Assembly (NCBI GenBank): GCA_004213885.1 | Contig: SGYL01000011.1 | Coordinates: 1 to 58,166 of the forward strand | Length of the DNA stretch: 58,166 nt | Origin: Alphaproteobacteria bacterium | GTDB lineage: Bacteria > Pseudomonadota > Alphaproteobacteria > Puniceispirillales > Marisalimonadaceae | Reading direction: 5' to 3' | Part shown: piece after piece, positions 1,672 to 52,684 of the stretch | Numbering within the stretch: the first letter of the stretch is position 1 | How the letters are laid out: each line of letters opens with the position of its first letter | Notes under the pieces: model-generated | Seen by the model: only the letters and a program-made list of their open reading frames with translations | Told to the model about the DNA's origin: nothing | The model's database searches: none | Program-made: the position numbers and the translations under genes

Positions 1672-2480
1672 GAACTTAATATTGTATTTTTACCAACTTT
1701 TCTTATCAAATCTCTTTTGTAAGTTGCCGAAGCATGTTGATCATCTTCTATGTCTAAATTCCAAGCAAAATCATTTAATAATTCGTCGATAAATTCGAAA
1801 TTTTTCATGTCCCACTCAATTACTGTAGGTTTAGAAGGAATGCCGCCAAGTGTAAATCTAATTTTATTATCATCGGTTACCACAGCAAATGAAGCTATAG
1901 CATAATCTGAGTATTTTTCTGAAACCTCATTAAACGCATAACCTGTAGCTTCTTTTTTAGTAGGAAATTCTAATTTGATAGCTATTTCATTCGAATTTTT
2001 TGAAGTTAAAAGTGGTCCAAGGTAAAAATCATTAGCCGAAATAGATCTAAGTCCTTTTTTACTTTTAAGATAAATTTTACCATTTAAAGCTAAAAAACAT
2101 AAAGGTAGTTCAGATGTCGGGTCTCCATGGCAAATTGACCCTAAAATGGTTCCTCTAGCTCTATGTTGAATCTGACCTACATAAGGTATTGATTGATAAA
2201 TTAAAGGCAATTTACTTTTTAAATCTGACCAATTTTCAAGTTCTAATTGTCTAAATAAAGGACCAATTTCAATTGTATTGTCTTTATTTTCTAATGAAAT
2301 TACATCTTTTAAAAAGTTAATATCAATAATAATTTCAGGGTTTGCAATCCTCATATTCAACATTGATATCAAAGATTGACCGCCAGCAAGAATTTGAGCT
2401 TTTTCACCATGAATATCTAGAACATCAAGAACTTCATTTATTGAACTACTCTTAATATATTTAAAGTTACAAGGTTTCAA
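1656..2480 (-). CDS. FAD-binding subunit of a molybdenum hydroxylase (CoxM-like), set 1
   Basis: A 274-aa protein with the two FAD-binding signatures of the CoxM / xanthine dehydrogenase medium subunit. AGGQSLISMLNMR lies near residue 32, and GTILGSICHGDPTSE lies near residue 110, a variant of the TIGGxxxHADPxxE motif. The CO-dehydrogenase flavoprotein C-terminal domain follows. In the heterotrimeric family this subunit passes electrons from the 2Fe-2S subunit to the acceptor. Its start overlaps the end of the Mo-subunit/CoxG fusion by 4 bp, so the two are translationally coupled. The matching 2Fe-2S subunit is not adjacent; the nearest candidate is at 9633-10139. It is the last gene of the co-directional array. 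Confidence 0.9.
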   Translation of the reverse strand: MKPCNFKYIKSSSINEVLDVLDIHGEKAQILAGGQSLISMLNMRIANPEIIIDINFLKDVISLENKDNTIEIGPLFRQLELENWSDLKSKLPLIYQSIPYVGQIQHRARGTILGSICHGDPTSELPLCFLALNGKIYLKSKKGLRSISANDFYLGPLLTSKNSNEIAIKLEFPTKKEATGYAFNEVSEKYSDYAIASFAVVTDDNKIRFTLGGIPSKPTVIEWDMKNFEFIDELLNDFAWNLDIEDDQHASATYKRDLIRKVGKNTILSSVKNI

Positions 2481-5428
2481 ATTTTTATACCGAAAAGTTT
2501 AAAGAGTTTTTTTAAAAATGTTTCATATGAACTTTTATTTAAAGTAAAAGATTGAAAGATTTGATTAACTAATATTTTTACTGATGAATTTATTAATCTG
2601 TTACCAACTATCATAATTTTTCCATCAACTTTAGCTCCATAAGAATAAGCTAAAAAACTCTTTTTATTTTTATTAATAATTTCAATTTTAGCGATCCCAG
2701 TTCCATTTCCAAGTTCACCATGGCCATTTCCAGAGATTTCAAAAGATTTATTTTGTTTTATTTTTTTTATAGAAACATTGAAAGAATATTCTCCTTTGAC
2801 TGGTCCAATACTTAGTTGAATTATTCCATTTAAATTATTTTTTGTAATTTCTTTTAAAGATTTACATCCAGGAATAATTGTTTTTAAATTTTTAAAATCA
2901 AATATTTTTTCCCATAATTCATTTTGATCAATATTTAATTCAAATTCTCCACTTCCATTTATTGGATGGTTTTTGAAATTGATATTTTCATTTATGTGTT
3001 TAGGTTTTTTTTCATTCTTATTTAAATTTAAATATTGATGAACTTTTGTGTTTGTTAGAGGAAGTTTAACATTTTTAATTTTTAAAGCGTCTGAGAAAGC
3101 GTTAGCAATAGCAACTGGGGTAGACATGCAATTTCCTTCACCAAGACCTTTGGATCCAAGAGGAGTAAATGGACTTGGAGTTTCTATATGAATTATCTCA
3201 GGTTCATTAACTTCATATGTTGATGGCAAGTGATAATCTTGAAAGGAACCAGATAAAAAACTTCCATTATCATTATATTTAAACTCTTCTAAAAGAGATG
3301 CACCAACTGCATGTGCATATGCACCATATATTTGACCATTTGCTAGCAGCGGATTAATAATTTTCCCTGCATCATGTCCTGTAACATATTCATCAATTTT
3401 AAGCTTGGATGTTATTGGATCAATTTCAATGCCACACACATCAAATACAAAACCATAAGCAAGTGATCCATTAATCTCATCTTTTTCATTGGGAGGTCTC
3501 AATTTTTCATTACCCCAAAAAACAGTTTCTCTCAAACTTGGATTTAACTTTTCTGGCAAATTTCCAGGAGACCAATGAGGTATTCCAACTAATCTTTTGA
3601 AATTTAAGTAATTGTCAGAATTTTTTTTGTCATAAACTTTTTCTTTATCAAATAAAATATTTTCACTTTTGCAATTAAGTTGACTTGCTGCAATTTTTTT
3701 TAGTTTTTTCTTTAGATTGTTTGCAGCATTAAAAGCTGAGCCAGCTACAGCTCCTGCAAATCTACTTGAGTAATTTCCTGCAGCTATTGACCAAGCATCT
3801 TTATGTGTATCGTGAGTTGTGTTGACAAAAACATCATTAATTTTAATTCCGAATACATCAGCGACTATTTGAGACAAAATTGTTTTATGACCTTGACCTT
3901 GTGGCAAGCTATCACACGTCACATAAACACTTCCTGTAGGGCCAATTGAAACACTTGTAGATGCTAATGCTCCTCCTTTATGCCCAGTTTTTTCTCTGTC
4001 TTTATAGGGCAAAGCTGTTGTGACATAACCCATATTTGATATCGAAGGTTCAATTATTGCAGAATATCCAATGCCATAAATTTTACCGTTTTTAATTGCA
4101 TCACTTTTTTTCTTCAAAATATTTTTATATGTAGAACTTTTGACAACTTTTTTTACAAGTTTTTGAAAATCACCCGAGTCTATTAATGCTCCGGAGGGTG
4201 ACTTATATGGAAATTGTTTTTTTTCAAGAAGGTTAACTTTTATGACATCAAGTACATTTAAATTTAATTCAACAGAAATTTGATGAACTAATCTCTCTAA
4301 TGCAAAATAATGTTGAGGTCCACCAAAACCTCTGTTTAGACCAGATGGAGTTTTGTTTGTTAATACTACTCTATTTCTACATCTGATATTTTTTACTTTA
4401 TATGCACCACTTAGATTTCCGTGCATTCTGTAAAGTGAAGCTGGTTCAGGGGCCCTTGGGTAGGCTCCAACATCATCTATTTGATCATAATCTAAAGCTT
4501 CAATAAGTCCTTTTTCATTGATACTTGCTCTTAATTTAGTTAATCTTCCCGATGCTGAAGAGGCGGCAGTGAGATGTTCTAATCTATCTTCCACCCAAAT
4601 TACTTGTTTATTTGAAAGCTTTGAAGCTAAACAAGTTAAAATAATCATGGGCATTATAGCTTGTTTTATACCAAAACTTCCTCCAGAATCTTCAAAAGAT
4701 ATTAATCTTAGTTTTCCTTCTTCAACTTTAAGTGCACGAGATAAAACAGAGTGTAAACTAAAAGGACCTTGAAAATTCGACTTTACGTCAAAAATCCCAC
4801 TTGCTTTGTCATATTCACTATGAACAACAAACCCCTCTAGAGGAGTACAACTATTTCTTGGATACTCTATCTCAATTTCAACAATTTTATGAGAATTTGT
4901 AAAAAATTTATTTGGTTTACCATACTCAAAATTTCTATCACTAACTACATTTGACTTATGATTTTTTTTATGAACAAATTTGGTTTTTGTATTAATCGCT
5001 TCTTTTATAGAAACAACTGGTTGGTTAACAGAATATTCTACGTCTATGAGTTGAAGTGCATCTTCACCAATGTATCTAGAAGTTGCTAAAATTATAGCTA
5101 TTGGTTCACCAACATAATGGACTTCATCAACAGTACAACACCAAGTTTTAAACTCTGTTCTTATTACAGACAAAAGTGGGTTTGAAATTTTACTAAAATC
5201 TTTTCCAGTAATAACACTGTGAACACCTTTGAGTTTTTTTGCTTTTGAAAAATCTATTCTTTTAATTTTCCCAGACGCATGTTCTGATCTCAGAACTACT
5301 GCGTGAAGAGCATCAGGTTTAAATGGCGTATCACTTCCAAATTGTCCTTTTCCATTCAGAAGTTTATCATCTTCAACCCTTTTTATATTATTTCCGATAA
5401 AACAATCAATAGGTTGGTCTTCAAGCAT
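2477..5428 (-). CDS. Molybdopterin-binding hydroxylase large subunit fused to a CoxG (SRPBCC) domain, set 1
   Basis: At 983 aa it is longer than the usual 750-800 aa CoxL-type subunit. Residues about 10-800 form the aldehyde oxidase/xanthine dehydrogenase a/b-hammerhead plus Mo-pterin domains. The active-site loop near residue 363 reads NRGFGGPQ, not the AYxCSFR of true form-I CO dehydrogenase. The catalytic glutamate is present in KGLGEGN (about 760). Residues about 820-975 are a CoxG-like domain, recognised from IIPGCKSL, GPVKGEYSF and AKVDGKI, ending in a basic amphipathic tail (FLKKLFKLFG) that could touch the membrane. CoxG is normally a separate protein linked to membrane attachment and quinone transfer of CO dehydrogenase. 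The fusion should tie this hydroxylase to the membrane. The substrate is unknown; an aromatic acid, aldehyde or N-heterocycle is likely from the neighbours. Confidence 0.92.
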   Translation of the reverse strand: MLEDQPIDCFIGNNIKRVEDDKLLNGKGQFGSDTPFKPDALHAVVLRSEHASGKIKRIDFSKAKKLKGVHSVITGKDFSKISNPLLSVIRTEFKTWCCTVDEVHYVGEPIAIILATSRYIGEDALQLIDVEYSVNQPVVSIKEAINTKTKFVHKKNHKSNVVSDRNFEYGKPNKFFTNSHKIVEIEIEYPRNSCTPLEGFVVHSEYDKASGIFDVKSNFQGPFSLHSVLSRALKVEEGKLRLISFEDSGGSFGIKQAIMPMIILTCLASKLSNKQVIWVEDRLEHLTAASSASGRLTKLRASINEKGLIEALDYDQIDDVGAYPRAPEPASLYRMHGNLSGAYKVKNIRCRNRVVLTNKTPSGLNRGFGGPQHYFALERLVHQISVELNLNVLDVIKVNLLEKKQFPYKSPSGALIDSGDFQKLVKKVVKSSTYKNILKKKSDAIKNGKIYGIGYSAIIEPSISNMGYVTTALPYKDREKTGHKGGALASTSVSIGPTGSVYVTCDSLPQGQGHKTILSQIVADVFGIKINDVFVNTTHDTHKDAWSIAAGNYSSRFAGAVAGSAFNAANNLKKKLKKIAASQLNCKSENILFDKEKVYDKKNSDNYLNFKRLVGIPHWSPGNLPEKLNPSLRETVFWGNEKLRPPNEKDEINGSLAYGFVFDVCGIEIDPITSKLKIDEYVTGHDAGKIINPLLANGQIYGAYAHAVGASLLEEFKYNDNGSFLSGSFQDYHLPSTYEVNEPEIIHIETPSPFTPLGSKGLGEGNCMSTPVAIANAFSDALKIKNVKLPLTNTKVHQYLNLNKNEKKPKHINENINFKNHPINGSGEFELNIDQNELWEKIFDFKNLKTIIPGCKSLKEITKNNLNGIIQLSIGPVKGEYSFNVSIKKIKQNKSFEISGNGHGELGNGTGIAKIEIINKNKKSFLAYSYGAKVDGKIMIVGNRLINSSVKILVNQIFQSFTLNKSSYETFLKKLFKLFGIKI

Positions 5429-5433
5429 TTAGT

Positions 5434-6213
5434 TTAATTTCCTTTGTAGGAGGGAGGGCGTTTTTCAGAAAAACTCTCCACGCCTTCTTTGAAATCATTA
5501 GAACTTCTTAATCTTCCATATGCTTCGCCTTCAAGATCTATGGATGTGTGAAGTGTTGCATTTTGTGTTGCATTTAATACAGATTTTATTGTTCGCTGAG
5601 CTAATGGAGATACACTTAAAAGTTCTTTAACAATTTTTTGTGTCATGTTTTCAAGTTCAGATTTTTCTACAAGTTCACAAGCAATACCTAATTGATAAGC
5701 TTCTTCACCAGACAGTCTTTTTCCACGCATAATAATGTTTTTAGTTCTTGAGATACCAATCATTTTAGCTAATCTTGCAGATCCTCCTGAACCAGGTATC
5801 ATTCCAATTTTCATTTCAGGAAGTGACAATTGAGAATCTTTTGTAACTATTCTAAAATCGCAAGCAAGGGAAAACTCAAAACCAACACCAAAACAATAAC
5901 CTTGTATCGCTGCAATTACAGGTTTTTTAATTTTTTCCGGTGTCATTACATTTTGCGCTAACATTGATAAATCCTCAGGTGTTTCTTCAAGAAAACCAGC
6001 AATATTTCCACCTGATGAAAAGTTATCACCATCTGCTCTTAAAACAATTACTCTTATATTTTCATTTCTATCAAGTTCATAAAATTGGTTTGCCATTACT
6101 TTTCTTTGAGAAAATAAAACTACATTCAAAGGAGGTCTTGATAAAACTATGTCAGCTCTACGATTTCTTTCATCAACCTCTACTCTAAATCCATCAAATT
6201 TTGATTTTTCCAC
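5434..6213 (-). CDS. enoyl-CoA hydratase/isomerase (crotonase) family protein
   Basis: A 259-aa protein of standard crotonase length. The first oxyanion-hole segment reads NFSSGGNI, the second GYCFGVGFEFS. Both catalytic glutamates of hydratases appear in place: Glu in GFEF and Glu in LPEMKIG, followed by IPGSGGSARL. It probably hydrates, isomerises or hydrolyses a CoA-thioester made by the CoA ligases upstream. It starts 17 bp after the HpaB-like gene and ends 5 bp before the Mo-subunit gene, within the same minus-strand array. A dienoyl-CoA hydratase acting on a dearomatised ring is possible but cannot be shown. Confidence 0.9.
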   Translation of the reverse strand: MEKSKFDGFRVEVDERNRRADIVLSRPPLNVVLFSQRKVMANQFYELDRNENIRVIVLRADGDNFSSGGNIAGFLEETPEDLSMLAQNVMTPEKIKKPVIAAIQGYCFGVGFEFSLACDFRIVTKDSQLSLPEMKIGMIPGSGGSARLAKMIGISRTKNIIMRGKRLSGEEAYQLGIACELVEKSELENMTQKIVKELLSVSPLAQRTIKSVLNATQNATLHTSIDLEGEAYGRLRSSNDFKEGVESFSEKRPPSYKGN

Positions 6214-6230
6214 AATATACCTCTGTAAAA

Positions 6231-7706
6231 TTATTCTGCAGCTTTGTTGTGCTTTATAGGTACATCATATTTACCCATCACTTTATCAACTACTTTTTCA
6301 AAATGATTCCAAGGTGTTTCTCTAAAGTTATGATTTCTTATAATAAATGAGGCGCCAGCATAAAATTTTTCATATTGTAGTTGTCTTCCAGCAAATTCTG
6401 ATCCTACAACATCCCATGCTAATTTAAATAATTTCATTCTATCTAAAGCATTCATTTGAGGTGTTTGGAAATAAGTTTCAAAGTCATTTAATAGTTCTTT
6501 ATTTTTCATGACTTTAATACTCGCAGGCATTTGAAACACACCACCACCGCATAAAGTTCTTAATTCATCAATAATCATCGAGTAATTATCAGTACAAAAA
6601 TTTAAGGCTGCATACATAATACGTCTATTAAACGTTTTAAAATTTTCTGGCCAATTCTCGGCATTTTCAATTTGTCCATAAATCATTCCAGAAAGGGTTG
6701 ACTCTAAAGCTGACATTTTACCTAAAGTTTCTCTTACAGCTGGAACTTCATCTGCGCCAGTAGCTTTTGCAACTTTATAACAGAGGCCAACAATTAATTC
6801 CATTTTTGACCAATATCTTACGTTAGATTGATGATTTCCATAACAGTGTGCAGGAGTTTTAAAGTATATCTCTCTAGCTTGTATTGCATCATCTTTAACA
6901 AATATCCTTTCCCAAGGAACTAAGACCTTATCGCACATTACTAGGACATCTGTTTCATCTTGGTTCCAAGATAAAGGTGCATCAAATTGATTATCATAAT
7001 GATTTGAAAGAGGTTGTCTCATCCACAAGGATAGTCCATTTGAATTACACGGTATCGCACAGGTTATTGATTGTTTTACTTGGTCAGGTGCCAAAGGTAT
7101 TAAATTTCCAATCCAAATTTCATTTGCAAAAATTGCGCTAGTTGCAAGCATTTTCATGCCTGATATAACTACACCTTTATCATTTTCTGATACCACTGAT
7201 AAAGTTGGAATTGGCAAATTTCTTTTTTGATAAAACTCAGGATTTCTTGCCGCTTGAGGAGGCACTACAGCGTATGATGCAAAAACATCATTTTTCTTCA
7301 TATATTCATAATAATTCAGTAAATTATCACTAAATTTATATTTTTCATTGTCAAATATATCTGTACTAGTTGACATACCAGTCACAAAACTTGCGACATG
7401 ATCCATTGACCTTCCCATCATTCCAGAGGTTTGGTCAGCAATGATTTTATGAGCCTTTGAACGTTTTCTTAAGTCATCTTTATTTTTAGCTTTAATAAAC
7501 CAGGTAGAAAAAGTCTCTCCGTTTTCTTCATAAGTTAAGTGCTCTTTATATTCTTTGGTATGTTTTAAATCATAGAGTTGTGCAACGGTTTTAGCTGCTC
7601 TTTTTAATGATGGATGTTTTGTAACATCAGAAACTTTTTCATCTCCAATAAATACAACTCTTCCATCTCGAAGTTGTTCTAAATGATCTTTTCCAGTTTT
7701 AATCAT
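6231..7706 (-). CDS. HpaB-type FADH2-dependent monooxygenase (4-hydroxyphenylacetate 3-monooxygenase family)
   Basis: A 491-aa protein matching the oxygenase component HpaB/PvcC over its full length. It opens TGKDHLEQLRDGR, has GRSMDH near residue 98, the flavin/substrate region ATSAIFANEIW, and a C-terminal GSEFAGRQLQYEKFYAG. The family ortho-hydroxylates phenolic substrates using reduced flavin from a separate reductase. Compared by eye with Thermus HpaB, Arg100 is kept (Arg99), but Tyr104 reads His103 and His142 reads Tyr145, so the substrate is probably not 4-hydroxyphenylacetate. It overlaps the cupin gene by 1 bp. No HpaC-size reductase is next to it; a flavin reductase lies far away at 51639-52301. 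Confidence 0.9.
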   Translation of the reverse strand: MIKTGKDHLEQLRDGRVVFIGDEKVSDVTKHPSLKRAAKTVAQLYDLKHTKEYKEHLTYEENGETFSTWFIKAKNKDDLRKRSKAHKIIADQTSGMMGRSMDHVASFVTGMSTSTDIFDNEKYKFSDNLLNYYEYMKKNDVFASYAVVPPQAARNPEFYQKRNLPIPTLSVVSENDKGVVISGMKMLATSAIFANEIWIGNLIPLAPDQVKQSITCAIPCNSNGLSLWMRQPLSNHYDNQFDAPLSWNQDETDVLVMCDKVLVPWERIFVKDDAIQAREIYFKTPAHCYGNHQSNVRYWSKMELIVGLCYKVAKATGADEVPAVRETLGKMSALESTLSGMIYGQIENAENWPENFKTFNRRIMYAALNFCTDNYSMIIDELRTLCGGGVFQMPASIKVMKNKELLNDFETYFQTPQMNALDRMKLFKLAWDVVGSEFAGRQLQYEKFYAGASFIIRNHNFRETPWNHFEKVVDKVMGKYDVPIKHNKAAE

Positions 7707-8092
7707 TAAAATTCCTCATCATTTTTGTAATAATGTAATTCAAACAAAGTACAACCATTTTCAGATTTAAATGGTCCATGATAAACTCCAGGTGGTCTGC
7801 ATGCATAAGTTGCTTTGTTAAATGTTTCTCCTCCATTGCCTTGTTCATCATTGCCAACAATTAGGTCACCAGAAACTAAAAAAACTTCTTCCCAATGATC
7901 ATGCACAAAAGGTTTTTTTGTATAAACACCTGGATCAAATCTTAATAACCTAGATCTGCTTCCAGTTTTTGTTACTTCATTTAAATCAGATGCTAAGATT
8001 TTTTGTTTAATACCCTCAGGATATCCATTAGGTGTTTTCCAGCCTTCTTCATTAGAAACTAATTCAAACTCAATATGTGGTTTTCTTTTCAT
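7706..8092 (-). CDS. small cupin-domain protein
   Basis: A 128-aa single cupin. Motif 1 supplies the metal ligands in FVHDHWEE (His64, His66, Glu68 or 69), and motif 2 supplies His105 in PPGVYHGPF, so a bound metal is likely. Small ChrR-like cupins are found as dioxygenases (for example the dihydroxyacetophenone dioxygenase group), isomerases or sensors. Directly upstream of an HpaB-type monooxygenase, with a 1-bp overlap, a role in handling the hydroxylated product is the natural guess. A non-catalytic function cannot be excluded. Confidence 0.8.
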   Translation of the reverse strand: MKRKPHIEFELVSNEEGWKTPNGYPEGIKQKILASDLNEVTKTGSRSRLLRFDPGVYTKKPFVHDHWEEVFLVSGDLIVGNDEQGNGGETFNKATYACRPPGVYHGPFKSENGCTLFELHYYKNDEEF

Positions 8093-8116: not shown

Positions 8117-9640
8117 TTAATTGTCTAGTTCATATTCTCCAGCTAAAATTTTTCTTCTTAAAATTTTTCCTGTTGGAGATTTTGGAATCTCTTTTATAAA
8201 AACATAAGATTTTGGTCTTTTAAAATTAGATAGATCTGATTTTTTACAAAAGTCATCTAATTCATTAAATTTAATTTTTTTATTTCTTTTGATAAAAGCG
8301 GTAACTTTTTGGCCCCACTTTTCATCTTTCAGTCCAACTATTACAACCTCATTAACGTCTGGATGTAATGAAATAACATTTTCAATTTCTATTGGAAAAA
8401 CATTTTCACCACCAGTAATAATCATATCATCAACTCTTCCAGTTACGTACAGATCACCATTTTCATCAAAGTATCCTGTGTCTTTTGTAAAATACCAGTC
8501 ATCAATAATTGAACTTTTGTCAGCATCAGGTCTTTCTAAATAACCTTCAAAAGCTTCATCATTTTTTATATATGCTATAATTTCACCTTCTTCATTTATT
8601 TTTGTTTTAGAGTTTATATTTTTAGAATTTATCTTAACAACTCTTATATTTTGGTTAATTCCTGCCTTTCCTGCAGACCCAGGTTTGTTTAATGCGTTAG
8701 GTTCTATTGAAAAGGTATAAATTTCAGAAGAGCCATAATGATTTATTAATTGAGAAACTGAAAAGCTTTGCTTGATTTTTTTTATTAACCCGTCTGTCAT
8801 TGGTGCTCCAGCAAATCCTAGCTTATGACATGTCAACAATTTTTCTTTTTTAAAGTAGGGGGAATTTATCAAATCATGATAAAGCGTAGGTACTAAATAT
8901 AAAGATGAAATTTTATTTTTATCAATTAACTCTATAGCTTCTTGAGGATTATATTTAGGTTGAGCAATAAAATTACCATTTACTAATGTCATAGATAATA
9001 AAGATCTTACACCCATTGTATGATATAAGGGCATCACACCTAAAGTAGATTCATATCTTTCATATCTATTTTGTGCGATGTGTGCTATGGCAGAACTTCT
9101 TTCTGCAAAATGAGATCTTGGAACGCCTTTTGGTTCGCCAGTAGTACCTGATGTATACAAAATAATCGAACAATCTTTATAATCAGCTTCGGATGAATTA
9201 AATATCTTCTTCAAGGTTATTAAGCTTTTAAAATTTATATATTTTGAACTTTGTGAAGATGTAGATATTTTAATTATAGAGTTTGGTAAATTAAATAATT
9301 CTACTTCTTTTTCAGAATGGTCATCGCATATTATGCATTTTGAATTTGAATTTTTTAAAAAAAAAATTATTTCTTCAGATTTCACTCTCCAATTTATTGG
9401 AACTATAACAATTCCAGTTAGTTGACACGCCCAGTGAATTGTACACGCCTCAAAAGTATTTGGTAAAAGTGTCATTAACTTATCACCTTTTTTTAACCCC
9501 ATTTTTTTAAACGAGATTGCTAAACTTGAAATTTTATTTAACCAATTAGAATAGTTGAGATGTTTGTTTTGATAGGTGATTGCTATTGATTCAGGACAAC
9601 GATCAACTGAAGATAAAAATGTTGTTCCTAAATCAATCAT
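8117..9640 (-). CDS. AMP-dependent acyl-CoA synthetase/ligase (ACS1)
   Basis: A 507-aa class I adenylate-forming enzyme. The P-loop is visible in ILYTSGTTGEPKGVPRSH, the A5 segment in NHYGSSE, the hinge and A8 core in KDTGYFDENG, and the catalytic lysine in SPTGKILRRK near the C-terminus. It activates a carboxylic acid to its CoA thioester through an acyl-adenylate; the acid cannot be read from sequence. Its start overlaps the end of the 2Fe-2S subunit gene by 8 bp, and the cupin gene follows 24 bp downstream. It is one of four adenylate-forming ligases in the window. Confidence 0.92.
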   Translation of the reverse strand: MIDLGTTFLSSVDRCPESIAITYQNKHLNYSNWLNKISSLAISFKKMGLKKGDKLMTLLPNTFEACTIHWACQLTGIVIVPINWRVKSEEIIFFLKNSNSKCIICDDHSEKEVELFNLPNSIIKISTSSQSSKYINFKSLITLKKIFNSSEADYKDCSIILYTSGTTGEPKGVPRSHFAERSSAIAHIAQNRYERYESTLGVMPLYHTMGVRSLLSMTLVNGNFIAQPKYNPQEAIELIDKNKISSLYLVPTLYHDLINSPYFKKEKLLTCHKLGFAGAPMTDGLIKKIKQSFSVSQLINHYGSSEIYTFSIEPNALNKPGSAGKAGINQNIRVVKINSKNINSKTKINEEGEIIAYIKNDEAFEGYLERPDADKSSIIDDWYFTKDTGYFDENGDLYVTGRVDDMIITGGENVFPIEIENVISLHPDVNEVVIVGLKDEKWGQKVTAFIKRNKKIKFNELDDFCKKSDLSNFKRPKSYVFIKEIPKSPTGKILRRKILAGEYELDN

Positions 9641-10139
9641 TTAGAGATCTTTTAAACCTATTTGCCATAACTTCTTTAACTGCTTTGATTATGCCTGTAT
9701 AACCAGTACATCTACAAATATTACCACTTAATTTTTTTCTAATTTCTTCATCACTCAGATATTGTTTTTTTTCTAAAAGATATACTATTGTTGTTAAAAA
9801 TCCAGGTGTACAATAGCCACATTGAAGGGCATGATATTTTTTAAATGCCTCTCTTAAATCATCATATGTACTATTTTCAGAGATGCCTTCAATAGTGGTT
9901 ATTTCACCATCATGTATTTGAGGTGCGAGCATCAAACAAGATCTTACTGGTTCATTATTAAACAATATTGTACATGCTCCACAAATACCATGCTCACATC
10001 CAACATGAGTACCAGTCATGCCACAATCAAATCTCAAAAAATCACTTAAAAGTTGTCTTGGTTTTACTTGTTTTTGAAATAATTCGTCATTGAGTTTAAA
10101 ACTTATTTTTAACCTATTGTTATCATTATAGATTTTCAT
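9633..10139 (-). CDS. 2Fe-2S subunit of a molybdenum hydroxylase (CoxS-like), set 1
   Basis: A 168-aa protein with both iron-sulphur clusters of the CoxS family. The plant-type ferredoxin cluster lies in GCEHGICGACT with a later Cys in VRSC; the helical-domain cluster lies in QCGYCTPGF and ICRCTGY. It carries electrons from the Mo site to FAD. It sits between two CoA-ligase genes, about 4.2 kb upstream of the Mo-subunit/CoxG fusion, and is the only small subunit available for that enzyme because the other one (15535-16014) has its own FAD partner. This split arrangement is unusual. It starts 1 bp from the ACS2 stop. Confidence 0.92.
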   Translation of the reverse strand: MKIYNDNNRLKISFKLNDELFQKQVKPRQLLSDFLRFDCGMTGTHVGCEHGICGACTILFNNEPVRSCLMLAPQIHDGEITTIEGISENSTYDDLREAFKKYHALQCGYCTPGFLTTIVYLLEKKQYLSDEEIRKKLSGNICRCTGYTGIIKAVKEVMANRFKRSLND

Positions 10140-10140
10140 T

Positions 10141-11676
10141 TTAAATACTTTTTTCTTCGTGATTTTGTATTAATTTATATCGCATAGTTTTACCAGAACC
10201 AGTTCTTGGGACAAAATCAATTTGTTTTATAATATCAGGAATTTTATATTTTGATAACTCATTGACACAAAAATTTTTAATTTCATTTTCATTAAAAATT
10301 TCACCCTCTTTTAAAATAACAAAAGCAGCTGGAATTTCGCCAAGTTCTGAATGTTTTAATCCAACAACAGCACAATCTAAAATTTTTGGGTTTTTTAAAA
10401 TAGCTTCTTCAACTTCTGTTGGAGAAATATTTTGTCCTCCTCGAATAATAATTTCTTTAAGTCTTCCAGTTATTGTAATAAAACCATTTAAATCCTGTTT
10501 TGCTAAATCTCCTGTATAATACCAACCATTTTTTAAAATTTTATCAGTTTCATTTTCCTTTTTGTGATATCCAATCATAACATTTGGACCTCTACATATT
10601 AATTCACCCTCTTCACCAGGCTTTACATCAAGGTCATTACCATCAATAATTCTTACACTCATACCAGGTAAGGGGAGACCACATGATCCCATATTTTTTT
10701 CTTTGCCAGACCAATTCATCGTTACCATTGTTGAAGTTTCTGTAATTCCATAGCCATCTAAAAGTTCCAAGTTAAAATATTCTTCAAAATCATAATTTAA
10801 TTTAGCGGGCATTATCGCTCCAGCAGACACACATTTGTTAATATTATTTAAATTTAAGTTATCTTTTTTTCCAGTCGATAGAAGATAATGAAACATTGTC
10901 GGAACACCAGGTAGAAAATTAAATTTTTCTTTTTTAGTTTTATTAAAAATATCGATAGGTGAAAATTTTGGTAGTAAAAATTCTGATGCTCCAGCAGCTA
11001 GTATTCCAAGTACGCTTAAATTTAATGCATATGAATGGAAAAGAGGTAAAGGTGATAAAACTTTTGAGTTTTCATTTAAACCAGCGATTGGCATCCAACA
11101 TGATGCTACTACCCACAGCATTCCCCTTGTTGTAAGTAAAACGCCCTTTGGCTGACCTGTTGTCCCAGAAGTGTAGAGGATATAACTAGGTTTATTAATA
11201 TCATCTTTTAATAAAATAGATTGATGATTTATCTTTCTTATTTTTGAAAGGTTTAAATCTGCTCCTTGATCATCAATAGTAATAAATTGTATTTCGTTTT
11301 TTAACTTTAATTGTTTTTTAATTTTATCTTTGATTTCATTAGTTGTAATTACAATTTTCGTGTTTGAATCGTTCAATTTATATTCTATTTCAGATAATGT
11401 TGAATCATAATTTATGGGAACAACCAAACAACCTAATCGTATAATTGCAAAACAAGAAACAATCCAGTTCACAGAATTTGGCAGTATTATCGACGCAGTA
11501 TCATCGGGGTTTAAGTTTTTTTCATTTAGATAGAAGGATAAATTTTTTGTCTCAATGTTAAGGTTTTTATAAGAAATATTTTCTATTTCATCAGCATATG
11601 CAATTTTATCTTTTAATTCTTTTGCCTGTTTTTCAATTAAATCGTTAATTGGCTGGATTATGTCTTTTTTTATCAT
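10141..11676 (-). CDS. AMP-dependent acyl-CoA synthetase/ligase (ACS2)
   Basis: A 511-aa adenylate-forming ligase with ILYTSGTTGQPKGVLLT (P-loop), DGYGITET (A5), YTGDLAKQD (A7), the GRLKEIIIRGGQN hinge region and the C-terminal lysine in TGSGKTMRYK. The family includes long-chain, aryl and 4-coumarate-type CoA ligases. The genes on either side (SDR upstream, 2Fe-2S subunit downstream) fit activation of an acid made by oxidation within this pathway. It differs clearly from ACS1, so the two ligases probably act on different intermediates. Confidence 0.92.
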   Translation of the reverse strand: MIKKDIIQPINDLIEKQAKELKDKIAYADEIENISYKNLNIETKNLSFYLNEKNLNPDDTASIILPNSVNWIVSCFAIIRLGCLVVPINYDSTLSEIEYKLNDSNTKIVITTNEIKDKIKKQLKLKNEIQFITIDDQGADLNLSKIRKINHQSILLKDDINKPSYILYTSGTTGQPKGVLLTTRGMLWVVASCWMPIAGLNENSKVLSPLPLFHSYALNLSVLGILAAGASEFLLPKFSPIDIFNKTKKEKFNFLPGVPTMFHYLLSTGKKDNLNLNNINKCVSAGAIMPAKLNYDFEEYFNLELLDGYGITETSTMVTMNWSGKEKNMGSCGLPLPGMSVRIIDGNDLDVKPGEEGELICRGPNVMIGYHKKENETDKILKNGWYYTGDLAKQDLNGFITITGRLKEIIIRGGQNISPTEVEEAILKNPKILDCAVVGLKHSELGEIPAAFVILKEGEIFNENEIKNFCVNELSKYKIPDIIKQIDFVPRTGSGKTMRYKLIQNHEEKSI

Positions 11677-11693
11677 TGAGCTATTCCAAATTA

Positions 11694-12449
11694 TTAAATC
11701 ATACTATATCCGCCATTGATGCTAAATGTTTGTCCAGTAATCCACTCAGCATGCTTTGAGCTTAAAAAAATTACCATTGGTGCAACATCAGAAGTTTTTC
11801 CTAATCTCTTAATTGGATATGATTTTAGTATTTTATCCATATTTTTTTCTAGAATATCATTATCTGTATGAGATGTTTTTACAAGTCCTAATGATATGGT
11901 GTTTACAGTAATAGAATATCTTCCAAATTCCTTTGCAAGTGATTTACCTAACGCAATTGTACCACCTCTAGCTGCAGCTGTTATTGCTAAATTTGCTTCA
12001 CCAATTCTTGAGCTGTCACCGACTATATTAATAATTCTACCATCTTGATTATTTATCATTTTTTTTGAAACTAAATGACAACAATAAATAGTGCCTTTTA
12101 GACTTATATCTATTTGTTTGTTCCAGTCATCAATATTTGTTTCTACAAATTTTTTAATTTTAGTAAATCCTGCATTATTGATCAAAATATCAATATTACC
12201 AAAATCTTTGTAGATCTTTTGCAAAACATCTTGAGTTTCATTAAATTTTGAAATATCTAACTTATATGCTTTGGCTTGAACTCCAAGTTTTTTAATTTCG
12301 TTTAAAGTTTCTTCAGCTTGGTTTTCTGTCGAGTTATAAGTGAAAGCAATGTCTACCTTTTCTGAAGCTAAGCTTAATGCAATTTCTTTTCCAATATTTT
12401 TAGATCCTCCAGTCACTAAAGCTACTTTATTTTCTAATTCAAAATTCAT
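11694..12449 (-). CDS. SDR-family oxidoreductase with substituted catalytic motif
   Basis: A 251-aa Rossmann protein with the SDR cofactor motif TGGSKNIGKEIA, the NNAG motif and the usual C-terminal ITGQTFSINGGYS. The catalytic YxxxK cannot be found. Where it should be, the protein reads TAAARGGTIALGK, with Thr for Tyr and Arg for Lys, and the active-site Ser region reads NIVGDSSRIG. It therefore probably does not perform ordinary NAD(P)-dependent alcohol/ketone oxidoreduction. It could be a lyase, hydrolase or structural relative. It overlaps the end of the Mo-subunit gene by 4 bp and lies 17 bp from ACS2, so it is firmly embedded in the array. Confidence 0.85.
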   Translation of the reverse strand: MNFELENKVALVTGGSKNIGKEIALSLASEKVDIAFTYNSTENQAEETLNEIKKLGVQAKAYKLDISKFNETQDVLQKIYKDFGNIDILINNAGFTKIKKFVETNIDDWNKQIDISLKGTIYCCHLVSKKMINNQDGRIINIVGDSSRIGEANLAITAAARGGTIALGKSLAKEFGRYSITVNTISLGLVKTSHTDNDILEKNMDKILKSYPIKRLGKTSDVAPMVIFLSSKHAEWITGQTFSINGGYSMI

Positions 12450-14779
12450 TTTTTATCCTTATTGCTGATTAGATTATATAATTTGTTTGGAGTAATTGGA
12501 AGTTCAGTGATTTCAATATTGAGATGTTTAAGAGCATCACTCACTGCATTGGCAATGGCACCTGTCGCTCCAATTGTTCCACCTTCACCCATTCCTTTAA
12601 ATTTTCCTATATTATTTGGTAAAAAATTTTCTAAATGTGAAATGGAAATCTCTGGAACATCAAGTGAATTTGGTATTAAATAATCAGCTAATGTTGCTGT
12701 TTCTAACTGACCATTTTCGTTATACTTCATCTCTTCAAATAAAGCGGCTCCAATACCTTGTGCAACACCTCCTTGAACTTGACCATCAACAATCATTGGA
12801 TTTATTACTTTTCCACAATCCTCAGCTACAACATAATTTTTAATTTTAATTTTAAAAGTTTCAGGGTTGATTTTTATAGTCGCTATGTGAGTTGCTGTAG
12901 TACTAGCGCCAAAAATAGGATCGTAAGATTCAACAAAAATCAAGGGTTTTCGTAATTTTATGGGTAGAGTTTGCATGTCGGAGTATATAATTCTTGATAA
13001 TTCTGGAAAACTTAGTTTTTTATTAGAGTTTTTTTGGGTAATTAAATTATCCTCTATATCAATTTCAGTCTTAGGTACATTTAAAATAAAAGAAGCAACA
13101 TTTAGAATATGATTTCTGGCTTTTTTTGAAACTTTTATTGCTGCACCACCGGCTAATGCAGCACTTCTACTAGCATATGTTCCGGTCCCATGTGTTATTA
13201 AAGAAGTATTTCCTTGTTTTATTTTGATTGAATTTGGTGTAACACCTAAGTTATCTCCAACTACTTGAGATAGCGAAGTCTCCAAACCTTGTCCATGAGA
13301 TGCTATACCAAATGTAGCAGAAATACTTCCTGTAGAATCTATTTCTAATATCGAAGTTTCAGAACCTGTATTAAGAGGCATGCCTGGCGCAACTGAAATT
13401 TTAGAACCTATACCAGTTAGTTCACCATAGGTTGCTATACCAATACCCTCCCATTTTTTTGTATGTTTAATTTTATCATAGTTTATTAAGCTTAATGCTT
13501 TTTTAAGACATTCTTCAAAACCTACTTTGTCCCATACAATACCAGAGCCAATTTTAAAGGGTTGATCATTCTTTCGTATAATATTTTTAAGTCTTAGTTG
13601 AGATGGATCCATATTGATTTTTCTAGCTGCCATATCGACCAGACTCTCAATAACAAATACCGCTGCAGGCCTCCCAACGCCTCTATAAGGTCCAGTAGGT
13701 GGTTTATTAGATGTAATACATTTTACATTTGAATAAAAATTTTTAATCTTATATGGACCTTGTAAAAAACCTGCAACTTGCATTGGTTCAAGAGCTGCTG
13801 TCCAAGGATAAATTGAATATGCTCCAATATCTCCATAAACATTTGAATTTAAGCTTATAAAATTTCCCTTTTCATTTAGTAAAAGTTCTGCTTCTATTAT
13901 TTCTTCAAAACCTTGACTAGTTGTTAAAAGGTCTTCATATCTGTCTGATACCCATTTTATCGGAGTTTGTAGTTTATTAGCAATTGCAACTACAATCAAT
14001 TCTTCCATATATAAAGAAGCTTTACCTCCAAAACCTCCTCCAACATCTGGAGCTATTACAGTAATTTGATTGCCATTAATTCCTAAATAGGTCATTATTG
14101 CGTCTTTTATAATTCCTGGAACTTGAGTCGAAGAATATAGAGTTAGCTCATTAGTTCTTTTGTTTATATCACAAACATATGATCGTGGTTCCATTGCAAG
14201 AGGCGTCTTTCGACCCATTTTAAATATCTTTTTTATACTTATTAATTCATTGAGATTCACATCTTTAATATCACCTTGAGAAAATGTTCTTTCTAGGATG
14301 ACATTTGTTTTTAAAGAAGGGTGAACAAAATTTTTAGTTTCATTAGATGCATTTATTGTATCTATAATTGGTTCTAATTCTTTTAATTCAATATTGATTA
14401 AGCTTATTGCATCCTCTGCAATATATCTGTTTTTTGCTACAACTACTGCAATTGGTTCTCCTAGATATCTAATTCTTTTTTTACATAAAATATGCTGTTT
14501 TGTTGGAAGATATTTTTTCATATTTGACTTTGATATAATTGGAGAAATATGTTTCAAATCATCATATAAAAAAATGCCATAAACATTTTCTAATTTTTTT
14601 GCTTCTTCCAAATCTATAGAAATTATTTCACCGTGAGAAATCTCACTCCTTAAAAAAGCGACATGATACATTCCTGGAAAATTGATATCTGCTGTGTATT
14701 GTCCGTTACCATTCAGTAATCTTTCATCTTCAAATCTCAGAACATTTTTTCCTACATATTTTGTTTTACTTTTAATCAT
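12446..14779 (-). CDS. Molybdopterin-binding hydroxylase large subunit (form II CoxL-like), set 2
   Basis: A 777-aa protein of normal CoxL length. The active-site loop near residue 363 reads GPYRGVGRP, close to the AYRGAGR of form-II (putative) CO dehydrogenases, which are mostly hydroxylases of other substrates. The catalytic Glu is in KGMGEGG (about 727). The N-terminal RFEDERLLNGNGQY is the family opening. It belongs with the 2Fe-2S subunit at 15535-16014 and FAD subunit at 16004-16882; a lactonase-like gene is inserted between them. It is expected to hydroxylate an aromatic or heteroaromatic carbon, or oxidise an aldehyde, with water as oxygen donor. Confidence 0.93.
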   Translation of the reverse strand: MIKSKTKYVGKNVLRFEDERLLNGNGQYTADINFPGMYHVAFLRSEISHGEIISIDLEEAKKLENVYGIFLYDDLKHISPIISKSNMKKYLPTKQHILCKKRIRYLGEPIAVVVAKNRYIAEDAISLINIELKELEPIIDTINASNETKNFVHPSLKTNVILERTFSQGDIKDVNLNELISIKKIFKMGRKTPLAMEPRSYVCDINKRTNELTLYSSTQVPGIIKDAIMTYLGINGNQITVIAPDVGGGFGGKASLYMEELIVVAIANKLQTPIKWVSDRYEDLLTTSQGFEEIIEAELLLNEKGNFISLNSNVYGDIGAYSIYPWTAALEPMQVAGFLQGPYKIKNFYSNVKCITSNKPPTGPYRGVGRPAAVFVIESLVDMAARKINMDPSQLRLKNIIRKNDQPFKIGSGIVWDKVGFEECLKKALSLINYDKIKHTKKWEGIGIATYGELTGIGSKISVAPGMPLNTGSETSILEIDSTGSISATFGIASHGQGLETSLSQVVGDNLGVTPNSIKIKQGNTSLITHGTGTYASRSAALAGGAAIKVSKKARNHILNVASFILNVPKTEIDIEDNLITQKNSNKKLSFPELSRIIYSDMQTLPIKLRKPLIFVESYDPIFGASTTATHIATIKINPETFKIKIKNYVVAEDCGKVINPMIVDGQVQGGVAQGIGAALFEEMKYNENGQLETATLADYLIPNSLDVPEISISHLENFLPNNIGKFKGMGEGGTIGATGAIANAVSDALKHLNIEITELPITPNKLYNLISNKDKK

Positions 14780-15538
14780 TTAATTATATTCAATTCCTAA
14801 TTTAAAATTTTGGTTCCATTGCAAATAATCATGTCCACAAATTAAGTTAATTTTTTTTTGAGAAAGTTTCTTAATTTTTTGATAAGACTTTAGAAGTTCA
14901 GCTTTATTCCAAGCATTTTTAGGAACTTCTTCAAATTCTAAATTACGTAAAAGACTTACAGCGTCAGATGCAATTAAAAATTGATTTTTGTCCAAATTTA
15001 CTAAAAGACCAATTGAACCAGGAGTGTGGCCAAAAAGATCAATTGTTACAATCTTAGAATTATTAAAAAAATCAAACTCCTCATTAATTTTTTTCAATCC
15101 CATTGGCAAATCCCATTCATTTTTAATATATCCAAATCTTTTTGCATCAGATGAGTTAGCTGCGTGAAACTCATTATTATGACAATAAAATTCAGCATTT
15201 GTAAAAAATTCATTACATCCACAATGATCGGGATGTAAATGTGAATTAATAACAATATCAATATCTGTTGGCTTTATATTTTTTTTATTTAGTTCGGAGA
15301 TTAAATTAATTCCATTCATGTTTTTAGGTTTCATTATTTTTGATAATCCACCCCAGCGTTTTTCTGCGTTGGTTTCAACAGACGGGTGACATCCCGTATC
15401 AAATAGTATATTTAAATTTTTGTATTGAATTAGAGTTGATATAACTGGTAATAAGAATTTTTCATCATCTGTTATTTTTGGAATAAATATTTTCTTTTTG
15501 ATTTCAATCTGCCCTGAGTTTAAAAAGAAAAGCTTCAT
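14780..15538 (-). CDS. metallo-beta-lactamase-fold hydrolase, AHL-lactonase-like
   Basis: A 252-aa protein with the complete dinuclear zinc site: SHLHPDH (His100, His102, Asp104, His105), His in FGHTPGSIG, Asp in IASDAV and the last His in ICGHDYLQW. The overall layout (FDTGC strand, then NSHLHPDHCG) resembles the N-acyl-homoserine-lactonase branch. Inside an operon for molybdenum hydroxylases, hydrolysis of a lactone or lactam ring intermediate is more likely than quorum quenching. The stop abuts the Mo-subunit start by 1 bp, and the start overlaps the 2Fe-2S gene by 4 bp. Confidence 0.87.
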   Translation of the reverse strand: MKLFFLNSGQIEIKKKIFIPKITDDEKFLLPVISTLIQYKNLNILFDTGCHPSVETNAEKRWGGLSKIMKPKNMNGINLISELNKKNIKPTDIDIVINSHLHPDHCGCNEFFTNAEFYCHNNEFHAANSSDAKRFGYIKNEWDLPMGLKKINEEFDFFNNSKIVTIDLFGHTPGSIGLLVNLDKNQFLIASDAVSLLRNLEFEEVPKNAWNKAELLKSYQKIKKLSQKKINLICGHDYLQWNQNFKLGIEYN

Positions 15539-16014
15539 TTAATTCCCTTATGAGCTAAGATTTCTTTTGCAGCTTTAATTATATTTTCATAGCCTGTACA
15601 TCTACATAAATTTCCTGATAATGCCTCTCTAATCTCATTTTCAGAAAATTTAATTTTAGATTTTAGAAGTTCATCAATTATCATTAAAAACCCTGGTGTA
15701 CAAAATCCACATTGAAGAGAGTGATGAGCTTTGAATTTTTCTAAAATATTTCTGGTTTCAGGTTTCTCTTTAAAACTTTCAACTGTTTCAACTTTTTTTC
15801 CATCTAGTTGGACTGCAAATTTAAGACATGATCTTGCTGTTAAACCATCAATTTTTATTGTGCAAGAGCCACATATTCCATGTTCACATCCTACATGGGT
15901 GCCTGTTAAATTAAGGTTATCCCTCAAAAAATCTGATGCTAAAAGTCTAGCAGGAACCGTTAAATCATATTCAATTCCATTTATTGTAGTTTTTAGTTGG
16001 ATTTCATTTGACAT
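15535..16014 (-). CDS. 2Fe-2S subunit of a molybdenum hydroxylase (CoxS-like), set 2
   Basis: The protein is about 159 aa from the ATG at 16014. A GTG at 16038 would add eight residues but would lengthen the overlap with the FAD-subunit gene, so the ATG is preferred. Cluster ligands appear in GCEHGICGSCT with Cys in TARSC, and in QCGFCTPGF and LCRCTGY. It pairs with the FAD subunit upstream (11-bp overlap) and the Mo subunit at 12446-14779. It is similar to, but clearly distinct from, the set 1 small subunit. Confidence 0.92.
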   Translation of the reverse strand: MSNEIQLKTTINGIEYDLTVPARLLASDFLRDNLNLTGTHVGCEHGICGSCTIKIDGLTARSCLKFAVQLDGKKVETVESFKEKPETRNILEKFKAHHSLQCGFCTPGFLMIIDELLKSKIKFSENEIREALSGNLCRCTGYENIIKAAKEILAHKGIK

Positions 16015-16882
16015 TTGAAATAACTCTTGCTTTAACACATTTTTTTAACACTTTTTTTAAAAGAGAATCAGATAAATAATTTTTATAATCAATCGACCCA
16101 TGATTATCATTAACTGGGTTTATTGCCTCAAATAAATCTAATTTTTTATAAATAGACAAATCTTCATATATATTTTTTCCAGTAAATTTTTTTTCAATTT
16201 TTTCTAATCTTATTATTTTTTCGTCTACACCACCAATTGCAATTCTAGCGTTCTTAATAGTTTCGCAATTATCTTCTAATTCTAAAATTACACCTGTTTC
16301 TACTATCGCAAAATCTCCCTTACGAGAACTGTGCTCTTCAAATGCCCAACAATATTTATTTATTTTTGGTAATGTAACTGAAGTAACAATTTCATCATCT
16401 TCGACGTTTGTAACAAAGTGACTTTCAAAAAAATCATTTACCAAAATTTCTCTTTCTTTAAATTTATTTCTTACATTAATTTTTGCATTTAATAATGAAA
16501 TTAACAGGGGCCATTCTGAAGAAGGGTCTGCGTTTACAATACTACCCCCAAGTGTTCCTTGATTTCTAATCGTTTGATGAGCTACATATTTCAATGCATA
16601 CGAAATTATTGGGAAAAACAATTTTATCAAATTTGAATTAATAGCATTAGTATGAGTTAAAAGGGAACCTATTTCCAGGCTTGATGAACTTTCACTCTCA
16701 AAATTTAGATCTTTAATATCATTTATATCTAATAGTAAGTCAGGCTGACCAAGTCTAAAATTCATAAGAGGAACTAAACTCTGTCCGCCTGCAATTATTT
16801 TAACATTTTCTTCAGAATTTAAAATATCAAGTGCATGGTCAAGTGAATTAGCTCTAAAATATTTAAAGTCACTAGGCTTCAT
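16004..16882 (-). CDS. FAD-binding subunit of a molybdenum hydroxylase (CoxM-like), set 2
   Basis: A 292-aa protein with the canonical FAD motifs AGGQSLVPLMNFR (near residue 32) and TLGGSIVNADPSSEWP (near 111), more standard than those of the set 1 homologue. It has an N-terminal MKPSDFKYFRA opening and the CO-dehydrogenase flavoprotein C-terminal domain. It is first of the set 2 hydroxylase genes in transcription order, 18 bp after the ABC transporter ATPase gene, so transport and oxidation are likely on one transcript. Confidence 0.92.
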   Translation of the reverse strand: MKPSDFKYFRANSLDHALDILNSEENVKIIAGGQSLVPLMNFRLGQPDLLLDINDIKDLNFESESSSSLEIGSLLTHTNAINSNLIKLFFPIISYALKYVAHQTIRNQGTLGGSIVNADPSSEWPLLISLLNAKINVRNKFKEREILVNDFFESHFVTNVEDDEIVTSVTLPKINKYCWAFEEHSSRKGDFAIVETGVILELEDNCETIKNARIAIGGVDEKIIRLEKIEKKFTGKNIYEDLSIYKKLDLFEAINPVNDNHGSIDYKNYLSDSLLKKVLKKCVKARVISNVK

Positions 16883-16900
16883 AATTATAATGAATTAAGG

Positions 16901-17545
16901 TCACTTTAATTTAATTTCACCACGTTCAATAATGAAAGTACGGTCTAACATTTTTTCGTAATGTTTTTCGTTACTTTCTGCAACTAAGGTAGTAACACCT
17001 TGTTTTTTTAAATTATTTAATATTTCAATAATTCTTTTTGTCAGTGCTGGCGCTATACCTTCTGTGGGTTCGTCTAACAATAATAGTTTCCTGCCTACCA
17101 TAAGAGCTCTTGACAAAGCTATTAATTTTTGCTGTCCACCAGATAAACTTGTTGAAGGCCTATTTTTTAGATCTTTCGCTTCTGGAATAATTTTATATAT
17201 CCATTCAAGTCTTTCTTTCCAATCCTCTAAGCCGACGGCCCATACAGGTATCATTATATTTTCTTCTGACGACATGGAGGGAATTAATCTTCTATCTTCA
17301 GGCATATAACCTATTAACATTTGGGCTCTTTTTTCTGAAGGTAGAGTAACTAAATCTTCGTTTTCAAAGGCGATCTCTCCAGATTTTGTTTTAAGAATAC
17401 CCATAATAGTTTTAAGAAGCGTTGTTTTTCCAGCACCATTTCGTCCAATCAAACCTACCATTTCACCTTGACTTAGGCTAAGAGAGGCTTTTTTTAAAAT
17501 TCCAACTGGACCAATATCTACATTAATTTTATTTAGTGACAACAT
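16901..17545 (-). CDS. livF: LivF-type ABC transporter ATP-binding protein
   Basis: A 214-aa ABC ATPase, at the short end for LivF. Walker A is GRNGAGKTT, the signature is SLSGGQQK, Walker B is LLLLDEPTEG, and the LivF-specific EGIAPAL follows. It forms a heterodimer with the LivG-type protein to power a hydrophobic amino acid/amide (HAAT) type importer at the inner membrane. It follows livG with a 14-bp gap. Substrate specificity lies in the binding protein, and HAAT transporters are also known for aromatic acids and amides. Confidence 0.93.
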   Translation of the reverse strand: MLSLNKINVDIGPVGILKKASLSLSQGEMVGLIGRNGAGKTTLLKTIMGILKTKSGEIAFENEDLVTLPSEKRAQMLIGYMPEDRRLIPSMSSEENIMIPVWAVGLEDWKERLEWIYKIIPEAKDLKNRPSTSLSGGQQKLIALSRALMVGRKLLLLDEPTEGIAPALTKRIIEILNNLKKQGVTTLVAESNEKHYEKMLDRTFIIERGEIKLK

Positions 17546-17559
17546 TATAATATCCTAAT

Positions 17560-18306: not shown

Positions 18307-18307
18307 T

Positions 18308-20160: not shown

Positions 20161-20178
20161 TATTTCCTGCTTTGAAAA

Positions 20179-20208: not shown

Positions 20209-20220
20209 ATTGATGATATA

Positions 20221-52654: not shown

Positions 52655-52684
52655 GTGAGTAGATTTAATAATCCAAAAGTAAAA

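Follow-up and report, generated by a model that had tools for sequence, protein, structure and literature searches.

Positions 1 to 58,166 of contig SGYL01000011.1, from an alphaproteobacterium of the Puniceispirillales (assembly GCA_004213885.1), constitute the 58,166-nucleotide window analysed here, and the element under study is a gene at 2477-5428 on the minus strand, in which the molybdenum (Mo) subunit of a hydroxylase is fused to a CoxG domain. The open reading frame (ORF) starts with ATG and encodes 983 amino acids, and many stops interrupt the plus strand. The molybdenum hydroxylase part (residues 26-740, 3209-5353) is covered by three Pfam domains, namely Ald_Xan_dh_C (26-135, 7.7e-23), MoCoBD_1 (156-400, 4.3e-56), and MoCoBD_2 (428-740, 1.2e-60). 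It contains the active-site loop TPSGLNRGFGGPQHY at residues 360-374 (4307-4351), with NRGFGGPQ at residues 365-372, and is followed by a GLGE motif with Glu764 (3137-3139), which we take to be the catalytic glutamate of the xanthine oxidase family. A linker that alignment shows to be variable in its identity by region (residues 801-822, 2963-3028) leads to the CoxG (SRPBCC) domain at residues 827-961 (2546-2950), which matches COXG (PF06240) with E=1.4e-20 and 73.8 bits against a cut-off of 22.2; the chain ends in a short basic tail (residues 963-983, 2480-2542), in which a helix at 969-978 is predicted at low confidence and to which a membrane function may belong. The fusion of the Mo subunit and CoxG is confirmed as real: several assemblies contain it as one ORF, at 44-97% identity, which rules out an assembly artefact or a chance fusion. 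A sequence-only reading of this DNA had given the same coordinates and had described a complete Mo subunit with GLGE near residue 760 and a CoxG-like domain from about residue 820, all of which holds.

The fold of the C-terminal part is likewise that of CoxG. Searched alone against PDB sequences, it matched 2pcs (1.1e-18), 2ns9 (1.1e-6), and, weakly, the M. smegmatis CoxG 8uds (0.0019), while the four best PDB matches of an AlphaFold2 model of residues 803-983, a model of moderate confidence with a mean predicted local distance difference test (pLDDT) score of 67.3, were 2pcs, two 2ns9 chains, and 8uds (Foldseek E of 1.3e-12 for 2pcs and 2.6e-8 for 8uds). Crude ratios of nonsynonymous to synonymous substitution rates (dN/dS) in five pairs were 0.12, 0.33, 0.26, 0.32, and 0.53 for the CoxG part and 0.11, 0.09, 0.10, 0.07, and 0.16 for the Mo part, with the reservation that each pair includes the window gene, so that the pairs are non-independent, and that silent sites are close to saturated in the most distant pair. 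In four of the five pairs the CoxG part changes faster than the Mo part; in the closest pair the two rates are about equal. The last 32 residues carry a net charge of +2 to +7 in 18 of the 18 proteins examined.

CO dehydrogenase is ruled out as the identity of the window protein by its active-site loop and its profile score. The loop of form I CO dehydrogenase is given as (A/S)YRCS(F/L)R in the passages of PMC13240472 used here; a loop of this YRCSFR type occurs in none of the 26 distinct fused proteins collected, the window protein having TPSGLNRGFGGPQHY, and alignment shows RGFGG in all 26, the RG[FY]GG core being common to fused and split members. The glutamate of the GxGE-type motif is likewise retained in 26/26, one of which reads GVAE. 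Against the CoxL profile TIGR02416, the window protein scores 342.5 bits, far below the cut-off of 991, and no locus of the host genome (84% complete) lies above that cut-off. The sequence-only reading, which held that the loop was not that of CO dehydrogenase, was correct on this point.

The genes around the fusion, all on the minus strand, resemble those of furoic-acid catabolism. The FAD (flavin adenine dinucleotide) subunit (HmfB-like, PF00941, 1656-2480) overlaps the fusion gene by four bases; on the other side lie an enoyl-CoA hydratase family gene (HmfE-like, 5434-6213), an acyl-CoA ligase gene (HmfD-like, 8117-9640), and a 2Fe-2S subunit gene (HmfC-like, Fer2_2, 9633-10139). In the available passages of PMC6678421, PMC12064950, and PMC6604932, hmfABCDE is the furoic-acid catabolism cluster, in which hmfD encodes 2-furoyl-CoA synthetase, hmfABC 2-furoyl-CoA dehydrogenase, and hmfE 2-oxoglutaroyl-CoA hydrolase; further genes are hmfF (decarboxylase of furandicarboxylic acid, FDCA), hmfH (GMC oxidase), psfD (Mo-cofactor insertion), and the transporter gene benE. 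Seven plasmid loci (L068-L074) are called hmf-type here because their gene content matches these published clusters: all seven have the fusion gene followed by an FAD subunit, a 2Fe-2S subunit, and an AMP-binding ligase, and an enoyl-CoA-hydratase-like gene comes next in six, lying upstream in Caballeronia NK8. UbiD/UbiX genes are found near four of the seven, a GMC oxidoreductase near two, XdhC near two, and BenE near one.

Identities to these operons were taken from five of the seven loci (L068-L072), and amount to 44-45% for the large subunit, 35-40% for the FAD subunit, 48-52% for the ligase, and 56-60% for the hydratase. The 2Fe-2S subunit is 47-48% identical to those of L068 and L070, whereas for L069, L071, and L072 another FeS (iron-sulphur) subunit of the window (15535-16038) scores better, at 48-54%. 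The Mo, FAD, and 2Fe-2S subunits of HmfABC are thus present in one operon, as judged by Pfam and coordinates, and the operon also appears, by homology, to hold the HmfD-like ligase and an HmfE-like homologue; the large subunit falls into one clade with those of the hmf-matching operons, in a comparison made without the HmfA of Cupriavidus basilensis. An HmfA-like identity is assigned as the most likely one because the plasmid operons match hmfABCDE and each of the five genes has a homologue in the window (35-60% identity).

The same fusion is widespread. From 36 fused ORFs, 26 distinct sequences were obtained, which form one clade of 12 proteins from SAR116, 1 from Acidiferrobacteraceae, 7 borne on plasmids, and 6 from other genomes. 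The 43 ORFs classed as unfused were reduced to 32 by removing duplicates and all unfused ORFs from L014, L028, L029, L031, L032, L034, L035, and L038, those of L014 and L032 being fused genes cut by a contig end and those of the other six being cut copies of the neighbouring Mo subunit. Every complete protein collected with at least 43% identity to the window protein has CoxG (26 distinct), the unfused Mo subunits reach at most about 32%, and the exception to this rule is a split form from Geobacillus, whose Mo subunit is 42% identical. Loci 84-97% identical to the query are from SAR116, the group of marine bacteria to which the host is assigned. In a set of 61 genomes (the host's own and 60 relatives), the gene is present in 14 of the 37 that belong to the host family, two of these copies being truncated at contig ends, the G007 copy ahead of its CoxG part; it turned up in 0 of the 24 genomes that represent the order's other families. 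Of 397 genomes sampled across the phylum, the host's own included, at least six others have the fusion, each at 45% identity over nearly the full length, a lower bound because two candidates were scored per genome; after the fusions, the next match drops from 911 to 399 bits, ends at residue 791, and is without CoxG.

Similarly, 535 plasmid records matched residues 691-983, and 52 of these cover at least 80%: 35 are in one piece (34.5-38.4% identity), 1 is in two pieces and belongs to Geobacillus kaustophilus, and 16 further rows at 25.5-33.2% either match in two pieces or carry a two-gene annotation. The seven one-piece loci examined (L068-L074) are all single ORFs. At L048, where the match has a stop inside the query span, the Mo subunit and CoxG occupy separate, adjacent ORFs and no fusion exists, and a Cupriavidus campinensis plasmid copy that seemed to lack CoxG (L101:3962-6913) does have the CoxG part, in a gene spread over several frames. 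The rarity implied by the sequence-only reading is therefore refuted by the 26 distinct fused proteins, and the phylum and plasmid surveys rule it out.

In G. kaustophilus, plasmid pHTA426 (L075) carries the same operon with CoxG as a separate gene (L075:9381-9839), the ATG of which overlaps the stop of the Mo-subunit gene (TGATG). Its product is identical to PDB 2PCS over residues 2-152, the first residue differing; the structure was deposited as 'Conserved protein'. In the Mo tree, the fused clade has a support of 1.0 without G. kaustophilus and 0.71 with G. kaustophilus as its sister, and the joint node has 1.0; in the CoxG tree, the fused domains make up a single clade (0.80) whose sister is 2PCS (0.80), and next come the CoxGs encoded beside the nearest unfused Mo group. 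This like branching suggests that the Mo subunit and CoxG were together before and after the fusion. Geobacillus may have kept the old split state or may have lost the fusion, tree support being moderate.

The explanation that best accommodates the observed domains, fusion, homologous operon, split form, and like branching of the Mo subunit and CoxG is that the window protein is probably the alpha (Mo) subunit of an HmfABC-type 2-furoyl-CoA dehydrogenase with three subunits, or of a close relative whose substrate is a different five-ring heteroaryl-CoA, the enzyme being coupled through CoxG to the membrane and the quinone pool. We infer the substrate, the membrane binding, and the quinone delivery as follows. 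The HmfD-like ligase would activate the acid to its CoA ester, and the Mo centre would hydroxylate the ring with oxygen from water. Electrons flow from Mo through Fe-S clusters to FAD in this enzyme family, and would here pass from Mo to the 2Fe-2S clusters of the HmfC-like subunit and on to the FAD of the HmfB-like subunit. The C-terminal CoxG domain would hold the complex at the membrane, helped by the basic tail, while a quinone taken into its SRPBCC pocket would be offered to FAD, so that the quinone pool, rather than NAD(P) (nicotinamide adenine dinucleotide, with or without phosphate), would be the point where electrons join the respiratory chain; the HmfE-like protein would finally convert the ring-opened thioester to 2-oxoglutarate. 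In favour of this explanation, the host genome has UbiG and no CoxL above the cut-off. Loss of coxG in Oligotropha leaves CO dehydrogenase working and slows growth on CO sevenfold, for which its authors propose membrane recruitment (PMC4240915), and CoxG is described as menaquinone-binding, citing Kropp 2025, in a passage of a marine CO dehydrogenase survey (PMC13240472). Together with the part of a Sulfolobus report that shows a CoxG-like protein to be needed for membrane binding of glycerol-3-phosphate dehydrogenase (G3PDH) and not for quinone reduction (PMC11962113), these accounts are why membrane coupling is held more firmly than quinone carriage.

Besides the Sulfolobus case, several points weigh against this explanation. 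The Hmf label rests on operon content and clustering, with the C. basilensis HmfA sequence outside the comparison, and HmfA is listed as 'furoyl-CoA oxidase' in a passage of a 2025 paper (PMC12064950). The adjacent ligase in two Acidiferrobacteraceae loci shares only 23% identity with the window's HmfD-like ligase and 29% with another window ligase, and no HmfE is found on the short contigs of these two loci; furthermore, the SAR116 proteins lie on a separate branch from the rest of the fused ones, and their operons carry HpaB and a cupin. The hydrophobic moment of the tail beats that of shuffled tails at the 5% level in only 2 of the 18 proteins, and tail amphipathicity was dropped as a proof of membrane binding; of the basic amphipathic tail described from the sequence, the basic character stands in all 18 and the amphipathic character mostly does not. 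The full-length AlphaFold model (pLDDT 42.6) is too poor for placing CoxG relative to the FAD side, and UbiA (TIGR01474) was not found in the host genome, 84% complete.

The strongest rival concerns the substrate. Nine of nine long SAR116 loci (L027-L032, L034, L035, L038) have the order FeS, ligase, cupin, HpaB, and hydratase, the shorter loci L018-L020 and L033 show the HpaB end, and in the window the additions are an HpaB-type flavin monooxygenase (PF11794/PF03241, 6231-7706) and a cupin, its partner (PF12973, 7706-8092), both on the minus strand. An HpaB homologue occurs in only one of the six other fusion-bearing genomes, at 27% identity, and HpaB is outside ordinary hmf sets. Since the SAR116 proteins form their own branch and the operon includes HpaB and cupin, the substrate may differ or there may be a second one, and the enzyme could be a paralogue of furoyl-CoA dehydrogenase that serves a different heteroaromatic acid (e.g., a pyrrole, thiophene, or substituted furan), with HpaB and cupin adding a ring step. 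In keeping with this, the cupin is 56-65% identical to the HpaB-adjoining protein of flavin reductase-HpaB-cupin-amidase modules in Thioclava, Roseateles, and Caballeronia, the window HpaB being only 33-35% identical to two HpaBs of those modules; however, the HmfD- and HmfE-like proteins of the window are as similar to those of the plasmid loci (48-52% and 56-60%) as the G. kaustophilus ones are (48-54% and 48-51%), and this alternative is possible but clearly the less probable one. As a side observation, HpaB and cupin (window 6231-8092; L073:24649-28468; L083:5454-9993; L084:5443-9455) look like a travelling pair, accompanied elsewhere by flavin reductase, amidase, and DUF2848 genes, and a flavin reductase domain protein lies in the window at 51639-52301.

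A second rival, somewhat less plausible still and on the whole doubtful, makes the CoxG domain a membrane tether only, with FAD reducing quinone unaided at the membrane surface and the SRPBCC pocket empty. The Sulfolobus G3PDH can reduce quinone when its CoxG is missing, the only effect of CoxG being to relocate the enzyme (PMC11962113, in the part available), and an Oligotropha strain mutated in coxG still has a catalytically active CO dehydrogenase (PMC4240915); nevertheless, a whole 140-residue domain is retained here with dN/dS below 1, which is more than a tether requires, and the marine survey passage describes CoxG as quinone-binding (PMC13240472). A reading of the domain as inert and left over, or as binding lipid without a part in the electron flow, is very improbable, for its faster evolution in four of the five pairs (about equal to that of the Mo part in the closest) is set against dN/dS values below 1, branching like that of the Mo subunit, and a separate overlapping gene in G. 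kaustophilus.

CoxG also accompanies other hydroxylases. Separate CoxG ORFs lie in the flanks of at least 11 of the 32 unfused Mo subunits, a lower bound because they were sought by similarity to the window protein and in 1.5-kb flanks only. A COXG match was found in 18 of 100 sampled genomes, and among six regions of five genomes, picked for long open frames or a nearby Mo subunit, four have CoxG joined to another electron-transfer subunit: the 2Fe-2S subunit in L085:926-2131, L087:942-2168, and L088:762-1928, and an FAD-FeS chain in L086:1289-3382, a single ORF of 697 amino acids; the CoxG of L090 is without a second domain. The CoxG domains of these four are on a separate branch, and their fusions consequently look independent of the HmfA fusion. 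It is about an even chance that CoxG is a portable quinone-docking module of Mo hydroxylases, fused to the Mo chain (HmfA) or to an FeS or FAD-FeS chain, or else encoded beside the Mo subunit. If so, many 'xanthine dehydrogenase family' enzymes would be respiratory, their organic substrates feeding the quinone pool, with 2-furoyl-CoA dehydrogenase as the clearest case and 2PCS as its ready-made structure. The only other CoxG of the host genome is a stand-alone gene at L007:1456-1923 (C1, about 151,050); no Mo hydroxylase was found in the 3.4-kb locus around it, and a nearby ORF is presumably an electron-transfer flavoprotein (ETF)-quinone oxidoreductase.

Non-CO enzymes with a CoxG partner have been published before, in the passages of PMC11962113 that treat the Sulfolobus G3PDH and cite a 3-hydroxypyridine dehydrogenase. 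The suggestion that CoxG goes with hydroxylases other than CO dehydrogenase is supported. The view that the fusion is an unusual one-off that newly extends CoxG coupling to organic substrates is scarcely tenable: the fusion is real and the enzyme is not CO dehydrogenase, but 35 of 52 plasmid records with at least 80% junction cover are in one piece at 34.5% identity or more, 14 of 37 host-family genomes have the gene, at least 11 of 32 unfused Mo subunits have a separate CoxG in their flanks, and such partners have been published (PMC11962113, same passages).

The fusion is common, CoxG with non-CO enzymes is already known, and searches of open-licence papers (subscription papers being outside the scope) showed no link of CoxG to HmfA: none of the papers listed ties the two by its title or the start of its abstract, and 'CoxG' and 'furfural' occur together only in one tobacco review, with one mention of each. 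The sequence-only reading had named a fusion both common and already characterised as the outcome that would tell against it; common it is, and the enzyme is most likely the genetically known HmfA, while the CoxG part goes unmentioned in the literature searched. According to the relevant passage of a 2018 review, the hmfABCDE enzymes were so far without detailed enzymatic characterisation (PMC6604932), and the physiological acceptor is unnamed in the passages on hmf of PMC6604932 and PMC12064950. Because all complete HmfA-type proteins collected have CoxG, and the Geobacillus operon encodes it separately, the predicted acceptor is the quinone pool, through which the furoic-acid pathway would earn respiratory energy. 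Koenig and Andreesen (1990) reportedly worked on the enzyme itself and may name its acceptor. The analysis further offers a role for 2PCS, a structure deposited without one, and natural pairs of fused and split forms could distinguish quinone carriage by CoxG from mere anchoring. The findings likewise point to a possible furan-acid pathway in oceanic SAR116 bacteria.

Elsewhere in the window, a five-gene branched-chain-type ABC (ATP-binding cassette) importer lies at 16901-21549 on the minus strand. Such an importer stands directly before the hmf-like cluster in three SAR116 loci (L027, L030, L032), which suggests an operon link, and hmf-type operons of Dinoroseobacter and Azospirillum also have one. 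In the window (10141-16882) and six other long loci, a second ligase, a short-chain dehydrogenase/reductase (SDR), and a second Mo hydroxylase precede the cluster instead, the last being a three-subunit set at 12446-16882 in the window. A third Mo hydroxylase (25074-28672) has its FeS and Mo parts in one chain of 916 amino acids, plus an FAD gene; beside it, ORFs of 479 and 280 amino acids (22806-25087) have no Pfam match at E 0.001 and may resemble 6-hydroxynicotinate reductase. An outer-membrane transporter of the ShlB/FhaC type with a POTRA domain (52655-54412) has no visible operon link.

Among known systems, the aerobic Mo-Cu CO dehydrogenase (CoxMSL and CoxG) shares the enzyme family, the kinds of subunit, and the CoxG partner, but the window protein is without the YRCSFR loop and below the family cut-off, and the CoxG of CO dehydrogenase is a separate protein. 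The G3PDH of Sulfolobus acidocaldarius likewise has a CoxG-like anchor, which brings to the membrane a flavin dehydrogenase acting on an organic compound, although its catalytic subunit is unrelated and its CoxG is separate and shown as an anchor only. The 2-furoyl-CoA dehydrogenase HmfABC of C. basilensis and Pseudomonas shares the three subunits, a CoA ligase, and an enoyl-CoA hydratase family gene in one operon, and the hmf-type plasmid loci have the same Mo-CoxG fusion at 44-45% identity; it differs in that the SAR116 operon begins with the FeS and ligase genes, has HpaB and cupin inserted, and contains no UbiD/UbiX, and in that CoxG in HmfA is unmentioned in the literature passages on hmf. 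The operon of G. kaustophilus pHTA426, whose CoxG is separate and overlapping rather than fused, has the same gene set, with identities of 42% for the Mo subunit, 52% for the 2Fe-2S subunit, 48% for the ligase, 46% for the hydratase, and 32% for CoxG.

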